Source: Cryobacterium sp. PH31-L1 (lineage in GTDB: Bacteria; Actinomycetota; Actinomycetes; Actinomycetales; Microbacteriaceae). Taken from it: 64,000 nucleotides of DNA. A program made the position numbers and the translations under genes. Where the stretch lies: positions 496,001 to 560,000 of the forward strand of contig NZ_JASISM010000001.1 of NCBI RefSeq assembly GCF_030063145.1. The letters are read 5' to 3'. This document shows positions 49,425-56,531 of the stretch, piece by piece (within the stretch, counting starts at the first letter, position 1; every line of letters begins with the position of its first letter). The notes under the pieces are model-generated. The model saw nothing but the letters and a program-made list of their open reading frames with translations. It had not been told where the DNA came from and did not search any database.

Positions 49425-50548
49425 TGCGTGACGTCATCATCGTGGGTGGCGGCCCGGTCGGCACCATGCTCGCCTGCGTACTCGCCGTCGGCGGGCTCGA
49501 CGTTGAGGTGCTGGAGCAGCGTGAGACACCGTCCCTCCGGTCGCGGGCGATCGGTATTCACCCTCCGTCGCTCGCCGCCCTCGCCGCCATCGGCATCACC
49601 GACGCCCTGCTCGAGCGGGCCGTGCGCATTCGCACGGGAGAGGTGCGCTGCGATTCGCGCAGGCTCGGGCAGATGTCGTTCGAGAAGGCCGCTCCGGCGT
49701 ATCCGTTCGTGGTCGCCCTGCCGCAATACGAGACGGAGGCCCTGCTGCGCGATCGGTTCGAGCGACTCCGCCCCGGCCGGTATCGCAGCGGCGTGACGGT
49801 GACCGGGATGTCCGATCGCGGCGACGCCCTGAAACTCACGACCGACGCCGGCCCGATCGAGGCCCGCTACGTGATCGGCGCGGACGGCGCGCGCAGCCGC
49901 GTGCGTCAGGCGGCCGGCATCGCCTGGCGGGAGCTCGGCCGGCGTGAAACGTATCTCATGGGTGACTTCGCCGATCCTGACCCCAGAGATACCGACGCGG
50001 TGCTCTACTTCGAGCGCGGCGGTGTGGTTGAGTCCTTTCCGCTGCCCGGCGATCGGCGTCGATGGGTGGCGATGACGGATTTTCTCGCAACGGATGCCGA
50101 CAGCGCCGACCTCGCCGCGCTCATCCGTCACCGAACGGGAGTCAGCGTTGCCGAGCCGCTCGGCGCTGCCAGCGCCTTCGCCGTGCAGCAGCGGCTCGCG
50201 GGGAGCATGCGCGCGGGCCGCGTGGTGCTGGCCGGCGATGCGGCGCACCAGATCAGCCCCATCGGTGGGCAGGGCATGAACCTCGGCTGGCTCGACGCTG
50301 TGGCCCTCGCGCCGGCGCTGCAGCGGGCGCTTCTCGAACCGTCAGCGGCGGCATCCGTTTTGGCCCGCTTCGACCGCACGCGCCGCCGCGCCGCCCGGCG
50401 AGCGGCCCTGCAAGCCGGATTCAACATGGAGATGGGCCGGCCAGCCCACGGTCTGCGACTCGGCGTTCGCAACGCCGTCGTGCGCAGTCTCACGCTGCCG
50501 CCGGCCAACGAATTGGTGGCCCGGGCGTTCACCATGCGTTGGTTGTGA
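49424..50548 (+). CDS. FAD-dependent aromatic monooxygenase of the PKS cluster
   Basis: A 374-residue group A flavoprotein hydroxylase. The N-terminal FAD motif is VGGGPVGTML, the ribityl-binding motif is GADGARSRVRQ, and VLAGDAAHQISPIGGQGMNLG is the second FAD motif. It would hydroxylate the phenolic or pyrone product of the PKS using NAD(P)H and oxygen, forming a hydroquinone or quinone. Start is the ATG that shares one base with the methyltransferase stop; the longer open frame lies inside that gene. Confidence 0.9.
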   Translation: MRDVIIVGGGPVGTMLACVLAVGGLDVEVLEQRETPSLRSRAIGIHPPSLAALAAIGITDALLERAVRIRTGEVRCDSRRLGQMSFEKAAPAYPFVVALPQYETEALLRDRFERLRPGRYRSGVTVTGMSDRGDALKLTTDAGPIEARYVIGADGARSRVRQAAGIAWRELGRRETYLMGDFADPDPRDTDAVLYFERGGVVESFPLPGDRRRWVAMTDFLATDADSADLAALIRHRTGVSVAEPLGAASAFAVQQRLAGSMRAGRVVLAGDAAHQISPIGGQGMNLGWLDAVALAPALQRALLEPSAAASVLARFDRTRRRAARRAALQAGFNMEMGRPAHGLRLGVRNAVVRSLTLPPANELVARAFTMRWL

Positions 50549-50574
50549 CCGCGCGCATCGAGTTGAATAGAACC

Positions 50575-52185
50575 GTGACTCCTGCAACTCTCGTTCCCCG
50601 CCTCCGCACCGACCTCGCCGCCGCTCATTTCTCGGTTCCTGGCCTGACCGGACTGTGGGGCATTGAAGCGGATGCCGCCCTCCGCCGGAATCAGCGGGTC
50701 CCGGCCCAGCGGGCACTCGCCACGCTCGCCGCCAAACTGGGCCGGAATGAGCCCGCCGCGACCCTGGCCCGGCTGTTCCTGCTCGGGGACGCGGTGCCGC
50801 GTGCCGATTTCGATGCCGCGCTGCCGACCCTCGGGGCAGCCGGAGCTGAACGACTCGGGCTCGTGGCCGCCGTCGATGCGCTCGTGCGCCCGCTCGTCGA
50901 CCTCCGTCCGTACAGCTTCATCGACGCGCACGGTGCCGGCAGCTGGTGGATCGTGAGCGATCTGGGGGAGCTGGCGCTCGGGCATCCGCTTGGCGAAACG
51001 CACGTTCTCGGCATCGGCGGCGCCTCGCGCACCCTGAGCGGGCTCATGATGCCGCACGCGGTTGAGCGGGCGCTCGACATTGGCACCGGCTGCGGAATCC
51101 AGGCGATGCACGCCTCCCGGCACGCCGAGCATGTCGTTGCGACCGACATCTCGGTGCGTGCGCTCGAGCTCGCGGCGCTGAACGCCGAGCTCAATGAGAT
51201 CGACAACATCGAGTTTAGGTTCGGCAGCCTGTTCGACCCGGTGGCGGGGGAGCGGTTCGACCACATCATCTCGAACCCGCCGTTCGTGATCACCCCGCGG
51301 GCCGAGGGAGTGCCGAGCTACGAGTACCGCGACGGCGGAATGGTCGGTGACGCCCTGGTCGAGGCGGTTGTGCGCGGGGCCGCCGAGCACCTCACTCCCG
51401 GCGGAGTTGTTCAGCTGCTCGGAAACTGGGAATACCACGGTGAAACGGATGCCTTCGAGCGGCTCGAGCGCTGGCTCACGCCGGTTGCTGGGGCGGCCGC
51501 AGAATCGAACGCTTCGGATTCGGTTGATCCGACGGTCGGCGCGCCGGCCGCACCTGTCGCATCCGCTCCACCAGCGCTCGACGCCTGGATCATCGAGCGC
51601 GAAGTGCAGTCGCCGGGCGAATACGCCGAGACCTGGATCCGCGACGGCGGCACGCGCCCCGGCCCCGACTTCGACCGCCTGTACGACGCCTGGCTGAACG
51701 ACTTCGAGGCGCGCGGAGTGAGCCGGGTCGGCTTCGGCTACCTGCTGCTGCGCCGGCCGTCCGCTGCACCGACCCTGCGCCGGCTTGAGCGGATGCCCGA
51801 TGCCCTGGGCCATAACCCGGCCGGCCTCGGCTCGCACCTCGCGGAGTGTCTCGCCGCGCACGACTGGCAGGCGGCAACGGATGACGCGCGCCTGTTCCGC
51901 ACGAATCTCACGGTGGCCTCCGACGTCACCGAGGAGCGCCACTATTGGCCCGGACAGCAGGATCCGACGCTCATGACCCTGCATCAGGGCAGCGGATTCG
52001 GCCGCTCGGTGCCGCTCGACACCGCCCTGGCCGGGCTGGTCGGTGCCTGCGACGGTGAACTCGCCGTCGGCGCCATCATCGGCGCCCTCGCCCAGCTGCT
52101 CGACGCCGACGAGGCAGCGCTGAGCGCCGAGCTACTCCCGAAGGTGCGCGCCCTCTTAGCCGATGGCTTCCTGACCGTGCCGTAG
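50575..52185 (+). CDS. Multidomain class I methyltransferase (actinobacterial DUF7059-type)
   Basis: A 536-residue protein. An N-terminal region of about 130 residues of helical character precedes a SAM-binding core with DIGTGCGIQAMHAS at 168 and SNPPF at 233-237. NPPF is the active-site motif of N-methyltransferases that act on Gln or on bases (HemK, RsmC). A C-terminal region of about 230 residues follows, with an Ala/Pro linker near 310-330. It resembles large actinobacterial methyltransferases of unknown target. GTG 50575 is chosen; GTG 50545, overlapping the upstream stop, is possible but gives ten codons with rare AGA, AAT and TTG. Confidence 0.85.
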   Translation: MTPATLVPRLRTDLAAAHFSVPGLTGLWGIEADAALRRNQRVPAQRALATLAAKLGRNEPAATLARLFLLGDAVPRADFDAALPTLGAAGAERLGLVAAVDALVRPLVDLRPYSFIDAHGAGSWWIVSDLGELALGHPLGETHVLGIGGASRTLSGLMMPHAVERALDIGTGCGIQAMHASRHAEHVVATDISVRALELAALNAELNEIDNIEFRFGSLFDPVAGERFDHIISNPPFVITPRAEGVPSYEYRDGGMVGDALVEAVVRGAAEHLTPGGVVQLLGNWEYHGETDAFERLERWLTPVAGAAAESNASDSVDPTVGAPAAPVASAPPALDAWIIEREVQSPGEYAETWIRDGGTRPGPDFDRLYDAWLNDFEARGVSRVGFGYLLLRRPSAAPTLRRLERMPDALGHNPAGLGSHLAECLAAHDWQAATDDARLFRTNLTVASDVTEERHYWPGQQDPTLMTLHQGSGFGRSVPLDTALAGLVGACDGELAVGAIIGALAQLLDADEAALSAELLPKVRALLADGFLTVP

Positions 52186-52292: not shown

Positions 52293-53321
52293 TCACTCCG
52301 GGCGCAGGCCAGCCTGAAGCAGCAGAGCGCGCAGCCGATCAGCGCGCAGCGCGGTGTCCCACAGCCACCGAGCCATACCGTGGCCCGAGGTGAGTCGAAC
52401 GCGATCTTCGCGCACTTTCTCGTTCCAGACCACTTGGTCCATGGTGCGGCCCCGCAAATACTCACCGCGGGTGTATTTGACGAAGCCGTCGAATTCTCCG
52501 AGAAGTTTGACGGTGCGCAGCTCCTGACGCTGAATCCAGCGAAAGTCGACGGTGTCGTTGTGCCCATCGTTGCTTGCAAAAGTAACCTGCAAATCGGGGG
52601 CCGGAAAATGGCACAGGTGGATTTGGCCACGGCTCAGCGATTCTCCAGGTGAATCGGAGCGGTTGTCGCTGAATGAGATCGCCTCGAAGGCGGCCCGACT
52701 GCCGCGGCGTGGTCCGGCCTGATTAAGCCGATCCAGCAGCTCCTCTTTTGACACTCCGGCGACGACAGATCGGTTCGGCAGGATCAATTTTGCGGTAGTG
52801 CCGTGATCGAGGCTGGCCACAGCGGAGAGAAACGGTGTGGTGCGCGCCAGATCTAATAGGGTGCGCACCAAACTGGTCACGAGCATCCCGTCAATTGTGA
52901 CGACATCTTCGTCGGTGAGTACGTCGTGATGCCAGATCACACCATTTTTGGAATGCGCGGATCGTGGGGCACCCACCATGAGATGCACCGCGTCGGGCCA
53001 ACGGCCAACGATCGGGAGCCCCCAGAGCACGGCCGCCGATTGGTGCGAGAAGACCGGTTGTGCACGTCGGGTGGCGGCAACGGCGCGCATCCGCAGCAGG
53101 TATTTCTCCACGGCCTGGAGCTCGTCCCACCCGGCCGCGTTCACCACCACGCCACGACGCAAACGGATGCTGTCGCCCGCCGCCACCGAGCGGTTGAGAG
53201 CACGGCCGTCGGCACCAACGAGGTCCAGGTCCCGGCGCAGCTGCAATGGCAGCCAGCCCTTCATGGCAGCATCCGCAACCCCGGGTGTATCCTCGGATGC
53301 TGATCCTTGAGTCGGTGTCAT
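52293..53321 (-). CDS. AbiEi-like/DUF559-like protein with putative endonuclease fold
   Basis: A 342-residue protein of a type often annotated in actinobacteria as AbiEi-like antitoxin domain or endonuclease-domain protein. The N-terminal 150 residues resemble AbiEi-like proteins (FSHQSAAVLWGLPI, VTSLVRTLLDLART). The C-terminal part resembles a small PD-(D/E)XK nuclease: D259 in DTVDF, then GEFDGFVKY with E276, D278 and K282, and an EKVREDRVR helix. No AbiEii partner toxin is present. ATG 53321 is chosen over an upstream start since AACGAT lies six bases before it. The flanks carry related palindromic repeats, unlike any neighbouring gene. Confidence 0.7.
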   Translation of the reverse strand: MTPTQGSASEDTPGVADAAMKGWLPLQLRRDLDLVGADGRALNRSVAAGDSIRLRRGVVVNAAGWDELQAVEKYLLRMRAVAATRRAQPVFSHQSAAVLWGLPIVGRWPDAVHLMVGAPRSAHSKNGVIWHHDVLTDEDVVTIDGMLVTSLVRTLLDLARTTPFLSAVASLDHGTTAKLILPNRSVVAGVSKEELLDRLNQAGPRRGSRAAFEAISFSDNRSDSPGESLSRGQIHLCHFPAPDLQVTFASNDGHNDTVDFRWIQRQELRTVKLLGEFDGFVKYTRGEYLRGRTMDQVVWNEKVREDRVRLTSGHGMARWLWDTALRADRLRALLLQAGLRPE

Positions 53322-53420
53322 ACGCCCATCGTTACCGCTTACCGCCTGGTCGGGGCGGTGCCGCCTCACTCCGTGCACAACGCATCCACTTACCGCGTGT
53401 GGAGGAGGGCGTCCGACCGT

Positions 53421-53526: not shown

Positions 53527-54327
53527 ATGACTCCTGCACCGGCGCTCCCGGCCGCCTTCGACCTCGGCGGGCGTACAGCGCTCGTCACCGGGGCGGGCAG
53601 CGCCACGGGTATCGGCTTTGTTGCCGCACGGATGCTCGGTGAACTCGGCGCCCGGGTGATTCTCACTGGTACGACAGTGCGGGTACACGACCGAGCGCGG
53701 GAACTCACCGCAGACGGCCTCGACGCTGTCGGAATCGTCTGCACCCTCGACTCGGACGCCGGCGCCGCGGAACTTCAGGCGGCCCTCGCCTCGGGCGGGT
53801 TCGAACCGACGGTCCTCGTGAACAACGCGGGCATGGTCGCGGTCGGCGACGCCGAGATGGGTCACGGAGATATCCTGACCAGTCCGGCCGAGTGGGAACA
53901 CGGCCTCGCCATCAACCTGTCCACAGCATTTCATGCCACTCGCACGGTGATCGGGTTCATGCGCGCGGCCGGATGGGGCCGCATCGTGATGGTGTCGAGC
54001 GTGAGCGGGGCGATCATGGCCAGCCGCAATGATGTCGCCTACGCCGCAGCGAAGGCCGGGCTGGTCGGGCTGGTGCGGGCGCTCGCCGTGGACGAGGCCG
54101 AAGTGGGCATCACGGCGAACGCCGTCGCACCTGGCTGGATCGCGACCGGCTCCCAACTCACGAGCGAGGCACTGGAAGGTGCGCTCGTACCCGCCGGGCG
54201 CAGCGGAACGCCGGGGGAGGTTGCATCCGTTATCGCGTTTCTTGCCTCGCCAGGAGCCGCCTACGTCACCGGGCAGGTGATCGTCGTCGACGGCGGTAAC
54301 TCCGTGGCCGAGGAGCGCCGCCGGTAG
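53527..54327 (+). CDS. Short-chain dehydrogenase/reductase
   Basis: A 266-residue SDR of the classical type. Cofactor loop TGAGSATGIGF near residue 21, NNAGMVAVGD, catalytic Ser in VSSVSGAIMAS and Y-x-x-x-K in VAYAAAKAGLV are all present. Lack of a basic residue after the loop and TTVRVHDRA leave NADH versus NADPH open. The segment AEMGHGDILTSPAEWEHGL is somewhat long. Substrate unknown; the C-terminus is the usual VTGQVIVVDGG. Confidence 0.9.
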   Translation: MTPAPALPAAFDLGGRTALVTGAGSATGIGFVAARMLGELGARVILTGTTVRVHDRARELTADGLDAVGIVCTLDSDAGAAELQAALASGGFEPTVLVNNAGMVAVGDAEMGHGDILTSPAEWEHGLAINLSTAFHATRTVIGFMRAAGWGRIVMVSSVSGAIMASRNDVAYAAAKAGLVGLVRALAVDEAEVGITANAVAPGWIATGSQLTSEALEGALVPAGRSGTPGEVASVIAFLASPGAAYVTGQVIVVDGGNSVAEERRR

Positions 54328-54371: not shown

Positions 54372-54455
54372 TAGTTTGGTCTCATGACTGGCGCCGTACT
54401 GAACCACTGCGGGCGCGCGCCCGAGATCCGCCGTTCTGAAGCAGACCGATCGTGA
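54372..54455 (+). CDS. Possible 23-residue leaderless leader peptide coupled to the amine oxidase
   Basis: TAGTTT (54372-54377) is six bases before an ATG at 54384, the spacing of leaderless genes here. The frame encodes 23 residues, beginning MTGAVLNHCGRAP, and its TGA (54453-54455) overlaps the GTG start of the amine oxidase by the GTGA arrangement. The oxidase has no ribosome binding site, so re-initiation after this small frame is a simple way to translate it. The coordinates include the -10 box; the coding part is 54384-54455. No homologue is known to me. Confidence 0.5.
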
Positions 54456-55861
54456 AGCGGCGCACTTTTCTGCTCGGCACAGCGTCGGGTTTTTCCGTGT
54501 TGGCCCTCGCGGCGTGCGTGTCCCCGGCGCCGGTTCCGACGACATCCCCGACGCCAACCACGCTCACCCCCTCGCTGGTTCCGCAGCCGCTCACGGTCTC
54601 CAGAACCAACTGGTCGGCCGACCCTTTCTCCCGCGGATCCTTCAGCTACGCCGCTGTCGGTGCCACCCCAGAGCACCGAGCCGCGCTCGGCCAGGCCGTC
54701 GACGCCCGAGTGTTCTTCGCGGGCGAAGCGACCGCGGCTGATGAGCCCGGCACCGTGCAGGGTGCCCGCGCTTCTGGTCTGCTGGCGGCCAGCCAGGTGA
54801 GGGACGTCGCGGCTCCGGGGGAACGCATCACGATTGTCGGTGCCGGAATTGCCGGGATAACGGCGGCCCGTCAACTCGTCAACGATGGCTTCAACGTGGT
54901 CGTGATTGAGGCGCGCGACCGCATCGGTGGGCGTATCGACACCGTCAGCGACGACTGGCCCTTTCCGATCGAACGTGGTCCCTCGTTCGTACACAACACC
55001 TCGGACAATTTCTTGGATGACGAGCTCACGGCCCTCGGGGTCAAGCTGCTGCCGTTCGTGCGCACGCCCGAGGTGCGAACCCGAGCCGGGGCGATCGTCG
55101 AGGTGTCACCACTCGGCACCCAGGCCGTGGCCGGAGCCCTCAGCTGGGCGGCCAATCAGCAGCAGGATGTCTCGGTTGAACGTGCCCTGGTCGATTCGGG
55201 CGAAGCCAGCCTGTCGAAGACCCCGAACGCCGAAGGCCTCTCGGATGCCGACTGGCTCGAGTACGAGATCGCCACGAAACTCAAGGTCGGGACCGGGGCC
55301 ACACCGAGCCAGCAATCGGCCTGGTACACGGCCGACATCGCGAGCACCGACGACGACCAGCTCGTGGTGGGCGGCTATTCGACCCTGCTGGCGAGTGACG
55401 CGGAGGGCCTCGACCTGCTGCTGTCGAATGTGGTCAACCGTGTCGCCCATGATGACCGTGGTGTGAGCCTGCGCCTCGGCACCGGTGAATCGCTGTCGGC
55501 CGATCGGGTCATCGTGACGGTGCCACTCGGTGTCTTGAAAGACGCGGCGATCGAATTCTCGCCGGCCCTGCCTTTTGCCCACCGGGGGGCGATCGGCGCG
55601 CTCGGTATGGGCGTGGTGGACAAGATCTGGTTGCGCTTCGACGTGCCGTTCTGGGATACCGAGGCACGGCTCTGGACCATCGTCGGTGAAGACGCCGACT
55701 TTGCGGTCTGGGTCAACATGATGCCGCTCACCGGCGAACCGGTGCTCATGGGTCTGATCGCCGCCGAAAACGCGACGAGACTGAGCGAGCTCGACGATGA
55801 CGAGTTTCTTGCTGCGGCCCTCACCGCGCTCGAGCCGTTCCTCGCGGTCCCCGGCCAGTAG
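54452..55861 (+). CDS. Circularly permuted flavin amine oxidase, lipoprotein or Tat-type signal
   Basis: A 469-residue flavin amine oxidase with its parts in swapped order. Residues 1-22 form a signal with twin Arg (KRRTFLLG) and lipobox LAAC. Residues 51-117 (NWSADPFSRGSFSYAAVG, FFAGEAT, GTVQGARASG) are what normally forms the C-terminal FAD-binding end of polyamine/monoamine oxidases. The Rossmann start GAGIAG comes only at 130-135, followed by EARDRIGGR at 153-161. The chain stops just where a normal enzyme would continue into the DPF..GSYS segment. It would be an outward-facing amine or amino-acid oxidase producing aldehyde, ammonia and peroxide. GTG start overlaps the small upstream ORF. 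Confidence 0.88.
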   Translation: MKRRTFLLGTASGFSVLALAACVSPAPVPTTSPTPTTLTPSLVPQPLTVSRTNWSADPFSRGSFSYAAVGATPEHRAALGQAVDARVFFAGEATAADEPGTVQGARASGLLAASQVRDVAAPGERITIVGAGIAGITAARQLVNDGFNVVVIEARDRIGGRIDTVSDDWPFPIERGPSFVHNTSDNFLDDELTALGVKLLPFVRTPEVRTRAGAIVEVSPLGTQAVAGALSWAANQQQDVSVERALVDSGEASLSKTPNAEGLSDADWLEYEIATKLKVGTGATPSQQSAWYTADIASTDDDQLVVGGYSTLLASDAEGLDLLLSNVVNRVAHDDRGVSLRLGTGESLSADRVIVTVPLGVLKDAAIEFSPALPFAHRGAIGALGMGVVDKIWLRFDVPFWDTEARLWTIVGEDADFAVWVNMMPLTGEPVLMGLIAAENATRLSELDDDEFLAAALTALEPFLAVPGQ

Positions 55862-55877: not shown

Positions 55878-56531
55878 TCAGGCGCGCCAGGGCGGAAGCA
55901 GGTGGCGGGGCATCCGCTTTAAGCGGGTTATCCAGGTGAGCAGGGCTGCGATGCCGGTGATGATTCCCACGATGATCAGGCAGTAGAACACGGTCTCGCC
56001 CGGGCCGCTCACCTGGCGGGCGTCGAGAAAGAAGTATGGGTACCAGCCCACGATGGGCCCTCGAACCAGGGTGAAGACCAGCCAGAACAGCGGAAAGACG
56101 ATGGCCCAGCCGAGATACCTCCACGGCAGGCGGGCTTTGAACGGGTCGACGATCCAGTCGATGAGGGCCAGGACCGGAATCACGAAGTGCAACAGCTGGC
56201 TCGACCACGGCACCTCGATCGAATAGTTCGCGCTCGACGACTGCCAGACGATGATGCCGTAGACGACCCCGGAGACCAGAATGTAGGTCGTCACCATCGC
56301 CCGCAACATGTCGAGCCAGGGCGGGTCGGTCGGGCGCCGCAAGGCGACGATCGCGGCGGTCAGAAAGACGAAAATCGATGCGATGGCGCTCTGCACCGTG
56401 AAGTAGCTGAAGAAGTTCGCAATGGCGAAGGTGGTCACTCCGAGGGTGTATTCAAAGTAGCCGATCAAGGCCACGAGTTCGACCGAGGTCAGGCCGAGGC
56501 GCGCCACACCGAACGCGGTGCGCGCCCTCAT
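55878..56531 (-). CDS. Pr6Pr family membrane protein
   Basis: A 217-residue protein with six to seven spans, fitting the Pr6Pr (FAR-17a/AIG1-like) family. Landmarks are NFFSYFTVQSAIASIF, LLHFVIPVLALIDWIVD with conserved His, and WYPYFFLDARQVSG. The last spans end in an Arg/Lys-rich tail. The animal relatives AIG1 and ADTRP hydrolyse fatty-acid esters of hydroxy fatty acids with a Thr and His; whether the bacterial members do so is not known. It converges on the amine oxidase with 16 bases between stops. Confidence 0.85.
   Translation of the reverse strand: MRARTAFGVARLGLTSVELVALIGYFEYTLGVTTFAIANFFSYFTVQSAIASIFVFLTAAIVALRRPTDPPWLDMLRAMVTTYILVSGVVYGIIVWQSSSANYSIEVPWSSQLLHFVIPVLALIDWIVDPFKARLPWRYLGWAIVFPLFWLVFTLVRGPIVGWYPYFFLDARQVSGPGETVFYCLIIVGIITGIAALLTWITRLKRMPRHLLPPWRA

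Follow-up and report, generated by a model that had tools for sequence, protein, structure and literature searches.

The protein encoded by the open reading frame (ORF) at 54452-55861 of a 64,000-nucleotide stretch of the Cryobacterium sp. PH31-L1 genome (here called the window) is a circularly permuted member of the flavin amine oxidase family. The evidence presented below shows that this is a circular permutation, neither a duplication nor an assembly error. With a probability of about 0.85, we interpret the protein as a natural circular permutant of the PF01593 fold acting next to a Pr6Pr family protein as an amine oxidase that is loaded with FAD, exported by the Tat system, and tethered to the membrane by a lipid; the loading, export, activity, and partner role are predicted features of this reading.

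The permuted gene and its parts

The gene lies on the forward strand (54452-55861), starts with GTG, and encodes 469 amino acids in which PF01593 is present as two swapped pieces. Its parts, all on the same strand, are as follows: (i) a putative twin-arginine lipoprotein signal (54452-54517; VKRRTFLLG...LAAC, with Cys22), recognized from the sequence and from pattern counts in permuted ORFs; (ii) a Pro/Thr/Ser-rich stretch that probably tethers the permuted domain to the lipobox (54518-54574); (iii) the displaced C-terminal segment that closes the FAD site in canonical enzymes (54575-54802; residues 42-117), matching positions 344-417 of a hidden Markov model (HMM) of the canonical family; (iv) a short linker from the former C terminus to the former N terminus (54803-54820), for which an alignment with LSD2 places the joined ends at query residues 116 and 124 (i.e., approximately 7 residues in the permutant); and (v) the Rossmann/FAD and substrate-binding core (54821-55858), which is also defined by structural matches of the model core. 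Positions 365-442 of the PF01593 profile match the start of the ORF and positions 1-366 match the remainder, and the Pfam scan likewise reported two stretches in this swapped order. The PF01593 score of the ORF was 222.7 bits against a curated cutoff of 19.8, and in the NCBIfam scan no model reached its own cutoff among the matches listed (the best 25 of 54).

The original prediction held that the motifs of the C-terminal segment precede the Rossmann motif GAGIAG, and both the translation and the PF01593 pieces confirm this: DPFSRGSFSY is located at residues 57-66, FFAGEAT at 88-94, GTVQGARASG at 100-109, and GAGIAG at 130-135. The Rossmann dinucleotide motif and the C-terminal FAD motif are thus both present in the window protein. 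The chain also ends, as predicted, where a normal enzyme would enter the FAD-closing segment, with the TAG stop codon (55859-55861) at this very point. A downstream in-frame copy of the segment, which the prediction had named as one of the findings that would overturn it, is absent, and there is no space for one, because the next gene, which is convergent, ends only 17 bases beyond the ORF (at 55878). The window protein does not have the usual family order (i.e., Rossmann part first and FAD-closing segment last), and because its parts are swapped, we class it as a variant and not as an ordinary PF01593 member. Of the paralogs in the same genome, the two for which the positions of both parts could be assigned (L001 and L002) have the normal order; three others (L004-L006) gave partial core matches only.

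Rotation restores a continuous canonical domain

Alignment with canonical enzymes in both the original and the reordered form had been proposed as a check on the permutation. We built an HMM from 19 canonical sequences, restored the parts of each permuted sequence to the usual order, and compared the best single-domain scores. The window domain scored 84.9 and 250.5 bits as two swapped pieces versus 346.8 bits as one piece, so that rotation yielded a single continuous match. Over 41 permuted rows, the mean best single-domain score rose from 224.6 to 306.2 after rotation, with a higher score in 39 rows and no rise in 2. Conservation extends to the cofactor motifs of both parts: the G and E of AGE are invariant in 41/41 permuted rows, and the GAG and G of the Rossmann motif are invariant across the 43 rows of alignment A1.

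The order of parts in each ORF was called with blastp and with two HMMs derived from the permuted alignment, one for the segment (counted at E < 0.01) and one for the core. In the ORFs examined in this way, the segment stood either before or after the core, and we saw neither intermediates nor a segment at both ends. This agrees with the predicted single copy of each part and hence with a rearrangement. Duplication was rejected as an explanation, the segment being present once with no remnant at its old place. Within the genus, both parts are under purifying selection, with median dN/dS values of 0.22 for the segment and 0.26 for the core (30 sequences; 404 and 424 pairs, respectively, with dS of 0.1-1.5).

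Structure models

AlphaFold2 with an alignment of 14 close relatives gave a pLDDT of 35.7. A model of the permuted chain from a 27-row alignment reached a pLDDT of 69.7 and a pTM of 0.72; this alignment includes canonical oxidases from viral contigs that were cut into core and segment rows, so it partly told the model how the pieces match. Model residues 41-120, which run from the rear part of the segment through the linker into the first Rossmann elements, had block pLDDT values of 87-94 with one block at 68, and residues 1-40 (the front half of the segment) had values of 50-83. The model core (residues 84-435) superimposed on LSD2 residues 376-745 with a Z score of 21.0 and a root mean square deviation of 3.8 over 343 residues, and it also matched LSD1 and polyamine (including maize) and monoamine oxidases, with Z scores of 17.8-21.0 among the 50 matches listed. 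The best Foldseek hit had a TM score of 0.63 over the query. These structural alignments omit the N-terminal segment, as expected of a permutant when the alignment is bound to chain order, and do not fix the position of the segment.

Distribution of the permuted order

A search of related genomes for the same order had also been suggested with the original prediction, and it found the permuted order in 57/57 Cryobacterium genomes and in 100/299 sampled genomes of the family Microbacteriaceae. The 57 include the genome of the window; the 56 other matches were 51-96% identical, the Cryobacterium flavum gene at 96%. Nearly all matches in the genus were a single hit over approximately query residues 1-464, with variants in G008 (28-467) and G052 (1-413 plus 413-464). 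A sequence scan of genome contigs gave 13 loci, all from Cryobacterium.

The family sample, which follows GTDB, includes six Cryobacterium genomes, that of the window among them. A tblastn match at an E value of 1e-20 was found in 134 of the 299 genomes, and the 100 genomes counted as permuted (about a third of the sample) were those in which the best tblastn hit begins at query residues 1-7. Matches not counted as permuted include G068 (281-463 only), G243 (100-462), G261 (22-463 through five stops), G103, G305, and G328 (internal stops), and those with the canonical pattern (approximately 126-461). An ORF-level check of 50 of the 100 genomes found all of them permuted. In one of these (G274; locus L166), the core of the permuted gene is split over two ORFs, and the gene is likely frameshifted or decaying.

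Permuted ORFs also occur beyond the family: in the same taxonomic order (families f15 and f16; L094-096 and L098), in further families of the same class (f21, f126, f133, f137, f140, and f142), and in two other classes of Actinomycetota (f45 and f86; f37). The remaining permuted loci outside the family are L103-105, L111, L127-132, L134, L137, L140, and L145. At the strict threshold, this distribution is patchy: permuted genes occurred in 3 of 148 genomes in one class, in 1 of 119 in another, and, in the class of the window, in 10 genomes from other families (296 genomes of this class were sampled in all). These counts are lower bounds, since the thresholds used outside the family (1e-36, and 1e-55 as the strict one) miss weaker members; several weak hits resolved at the ORF level proved to be permuted (G463, G539, G395, and G462) or canonical (G381 and G821). 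ORFs with the canonical order comprise L001, L002, L097, L099-102, L106-108, L112, L113, L115, L133, L135, L136, L138, L139, and L141-144.

The search covered Actinomycetota genomes and, beyond this phylum, plasmid and viral records only. Five plasmid matches covered the core only (query residues 140-461 or 140-460). Six IMG/VR viral contigs (L146-149, L153, and L156) carry flavin amine oxidases in the canonical order, with no permuted order among them; in L158, the core is followed by a weak, partial segment match, and L150 has just a fragment of the core. One of the canonical viral-contig oxidases (L148:2782-4206) starts like a Tat lipoprotein.

Alternative explanations and origin of the permutation

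That the swapped order arose from an assembly or sequencing error, or marks a decayed pseudogene, has a negligible probability: the identical part order recurs in many independent genomes, dN/dS in the genus is well below 1, and the ORF has no internal stops. Nothing in favor of this explanation was found for the window gene itself, although one relative (the G274 gene described above) looks frameshifted. A different question is whether the displaced segment closes the FAD site within its own chain or completes that of a second molecule in a domain-swapped dimer. Permutants with short linkers can domain-swap, and the joining linker is short here (approximately 7 residues against LSD2). The single-chain model speaks, weakly, for closure within one chain, given the confidence noted above for residues 41-120 and for the front of the segment, and we consider a swapped dimer quite improbable.

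As to the history of the rearrangement, a single origin of the permutation is neither shown nor rejected. In a maximum-likelihood tree built from 60 rows of the rotated alignment (without the long-branched L001), the order of parts changes at least 4 times, with weak deep branches; a 61-row tree including L001 also has 4 changes, and a single change was seen in 0% of 200 bootstrap trees. These trees, together with the absence of a lipobox pattern or a credible twin-arginine signal in the f15/f16 sequences, would fit several independent origins, i.e., one each for the main Microbacteriaceae clade and its relatives, the f133/f137/f140/f142 clade, the f15/f16 clade, and L105. Against such a history, a tree uniting all permuted rows in one clade was not rejected (p-AU, 0.196), the starred branches force one change only, and the breakpoint is alike in all groups, with a gap of 0-12 residues between segment and core in the 90 permuted ORFs and 1-22 residues beyond the core match (64 in L088). 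On balance, we give several origins a little less than an even chance. An origin of the segment in a different amine oxidase gene, with a foreign tail fused to the front and the native tail lost, is unlikely. Such a fusion would account for the nearest canonical rows differing between segment and core in many permuted rows, but the segment has only about 80 residues, and, across all rows, pairs with a more similar segment also tend to have a more similar core (Spearman coefficient of the pairwise identities, 0.61). This is a weak argument, because the pairs are not independent and the correlation mostly reflects descent after the event.

Predicted export and membrane tethering

The predicted signal with twin arginines and a lipobox is present in the sequence, with RR at residues 3-4 and LAAC ending at Cys22. 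The original prediction of a secreted enzyme is better rephrased as one of an exported and lipid-anchored enzyme. Both patterns recur in the permuted ORFs: a twin-arginine pattern occurs in 85 and a lipobox in 78 of 90 distinct ORFs. These counts come from a regular expression that was matched at any position before the segment within the stop-to-stop ORF; such a search is not a signal predictor, misses some signals (e.g., ERRTFL in L055), and can count chance matches (L096). Among the f15/f16 sequences, L094, L095, and L098 have neither pattern and L096 has only a chance-like one; these four sequences also form a long branch and are possibly cytoplasmic proteins of separate origin.

Given the twin-arginine lipoprotein signal, the enzyme is probably exported together with its FAD and tethered by its new front end. 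By eye, twin-arginine starts are also visible in 10 of the 19 canonical relatives. Export may thus have been a feature of the ancestor, with the segment landing between the signal and the Rossmann strand.

Active-site lysine

Lys391 (55622-55624), identified by its motif and by the lysine in the canonical rows, corresponds to the conserved lysine near flavin N5, and we take it to be the counterpart of Lys305 of monoamine oxidase A (MAO A). This lysine is present in 19/19 canonical rows. Among the 90 distinct permuted ORFs, it is kept in 31/31 Cryobacterium sequences, in 8/41 sequences from other Microbacteriaceae, and in 17/18 from outside the family. Accordingly, 33 of the 41 non-Cryobacterium Microbacteriaceae sequences are without the lysine linked to O2 reactivity, which the window protein retains.

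In the parts of PMC8009472 that concern this residue, the K305Q variant of MAO A had activity equal to that of the wild type, and K305M and K305S lowered kcat by 200- and 100-fold, respectively, while amine oxidation persisted. Considered with these mutants, the loss of the lysine suggests that O2 may not be the acceptor in some relatives. For the window protein, the fold family and the retained lysine together suggest an oxidase.

Linkage with a Pr6Pr family membrane protein

The convergent neighbor (55878-56531, reverse strand) encodes a six-helix membrane protein of the Pr6Pr family (NF038065; 129.9 bits against a cutoff of 30), and the two genes are linked across the family. Of the 100 family genomes that carry the permuted oxidase, 93 have a Pr6Pr gene within 3 kb downstream of it in the opposite orientation (i.e., tail to tail), with a median gap of 86 bp and a largest gap of 1,050 bp. 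Among the others, the end of a convergent Pr6Pr gene is present in G230 and cut by the contig end, the contig stops approximately 30 and 330 bases past the permuted gene in G100 and G259, and the 0.9 to 2.3 kb of downstream sequence available for G303, G340, G094, and G272 showed no Pr6Pr gene. At least five genomes (L167/G081, L168/G132, G157, G194, and G265) have a second Pr6Pr gene on the other side of the oxidase. The 94 best-ranked Pr6Pr hits all came from genomes with the permuted oxidase, and genomes without it gave weaker homologs. A model built from the linked Pr6Pr genes, which could miss remote ones, found no match in the flanks (approximately 1.5 kb) of 12 canonical loci or of the 18 permuted loci from other families.

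Thr45 and His115 of Pr6Pr are invariant in 91/91 sequences, which suggests a site like that of a membrane hydrolase. ADTRP, according to parts of PMC8123165, uses T47 and H131, and the six-helix membrane hydrolases of the ADTRP/AIG1 type share with Pr6Pr one invariant Thr and one invariant His; this is a likeness only. Pr6Pr had no match to the FAR-17a/AIG1/ADTRP Pfam profile up to an E value of 5, in a search whose filters drop most weak matches. The name Pr6Pr was not found in the open-license PMC literature searched.

The other neighbors of the oxidase gene, which include a short-chain dehydrogenase/reductase (SDR; 53527-54327), a methyltransferase (50062-52185), an acylphosphatase, and a PucR-type regulator, accompany it mainly inside the genus. 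An ORF of 361 residues on the reverse strand (52293-53378) had no Pfam match at an E value of 1e-5 and was found only in L073 among the loci compared.

Proposed working of the permuted enzyme

In the permutant, the last approximately 75 residues of an ordinary enzyme, which close the FAD site, lie between the twin-arginine lipoprotein signal and the Rossmann strand; the short linker connects the former ends, and the new ends fall in what ordinary relatives have as a short connection. In the mechanism that we propose, the chain would fold and bind FAD in the cytoplasm, leave the cytoplasm folded through the Tat system, become lipidated at Cys22, and stay on the outer face of the membrane, where it would oxidize a substrate that probably bears an amine. 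The Cryobacterium version, which keeps Lys391, would use O2 as the acceptor, and the Microbacteriaceae version probably works with the adjacent Pr6Pr membrane protein. Through the permutation, the enzyme would be tethered at the start of the FAD-closing segment and no longer at the Rossmann strand. A bolder proposal, which we regard as rather unlikely, is that the permutation aims the active site at the membrane and Pr6Pr, that the lysine-less Microbacteriaceae versions are amine dehydrogenases feeding a membrane acceptor, and that Pr6Pr is a hydrolase or electron partner. If so, the oxidase and Pr6Pr would constitute a two-gene redox module at the cell surface.

Comparison with known systems

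The well-studied family of monoamine, polyamine, and histone-lysine oxidases thus appears to include a natural rotated lineage that has kept its FAD motifs, is under selection, and has its gene linked to that of a membrane protein. Such a lineage offers a natural experiment on the effect of part order on folding, Tat export, and orientation at the membrane, as well as a natural series in which the lysine linked to O2 reactivity is kept or lost. It is also a warning that profile-based annotation can label permutants as ordinary or partial-domain proteins. The original prediction described permutation as not commonly reported in amine oxidases. In the open-license PMC literature, none of the matches listed describes a flavin amine oxidase with a permuted chain. 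In the parts that bear on the subject, PMC2876114 and PMC4432964 name other cases of permutation or only count permuted domains.

Like the PF01593 family (LSD1/LSD2 and the polyamine and monoamine oxidases), the permutant has both FAD-binding parts, the GAG.AG start of the Rossmann part, the W..DP..RGS.S, F.AGEAT, and G..SG..AA motifs, and, in the window protein, the flavin lysine; it differs from this family in its swapped parts, its new termini, and the loss of the lysine in many relatives. In LSD2, which supplied all three best sequence matches in the PDB, the segment follows the core, unlike in the window protein. The same contrast holds for canonical homologs from Actinomycetota that resemble Tat lipoproteins (L097, L107, L108, L112, L113, L115, L133, L136, and L139), which, within the sets searched, belong to the closest relatives with canonical order and, by eye, have twin-arginine starts and lipobox-like cysteines; in these, the core comes first and the segment last. 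Other natural circular permutants, such as glutathione synthetase, which is named in PMC2876114, likewise combine the same fold with a rotated chain, in an unrelated family.
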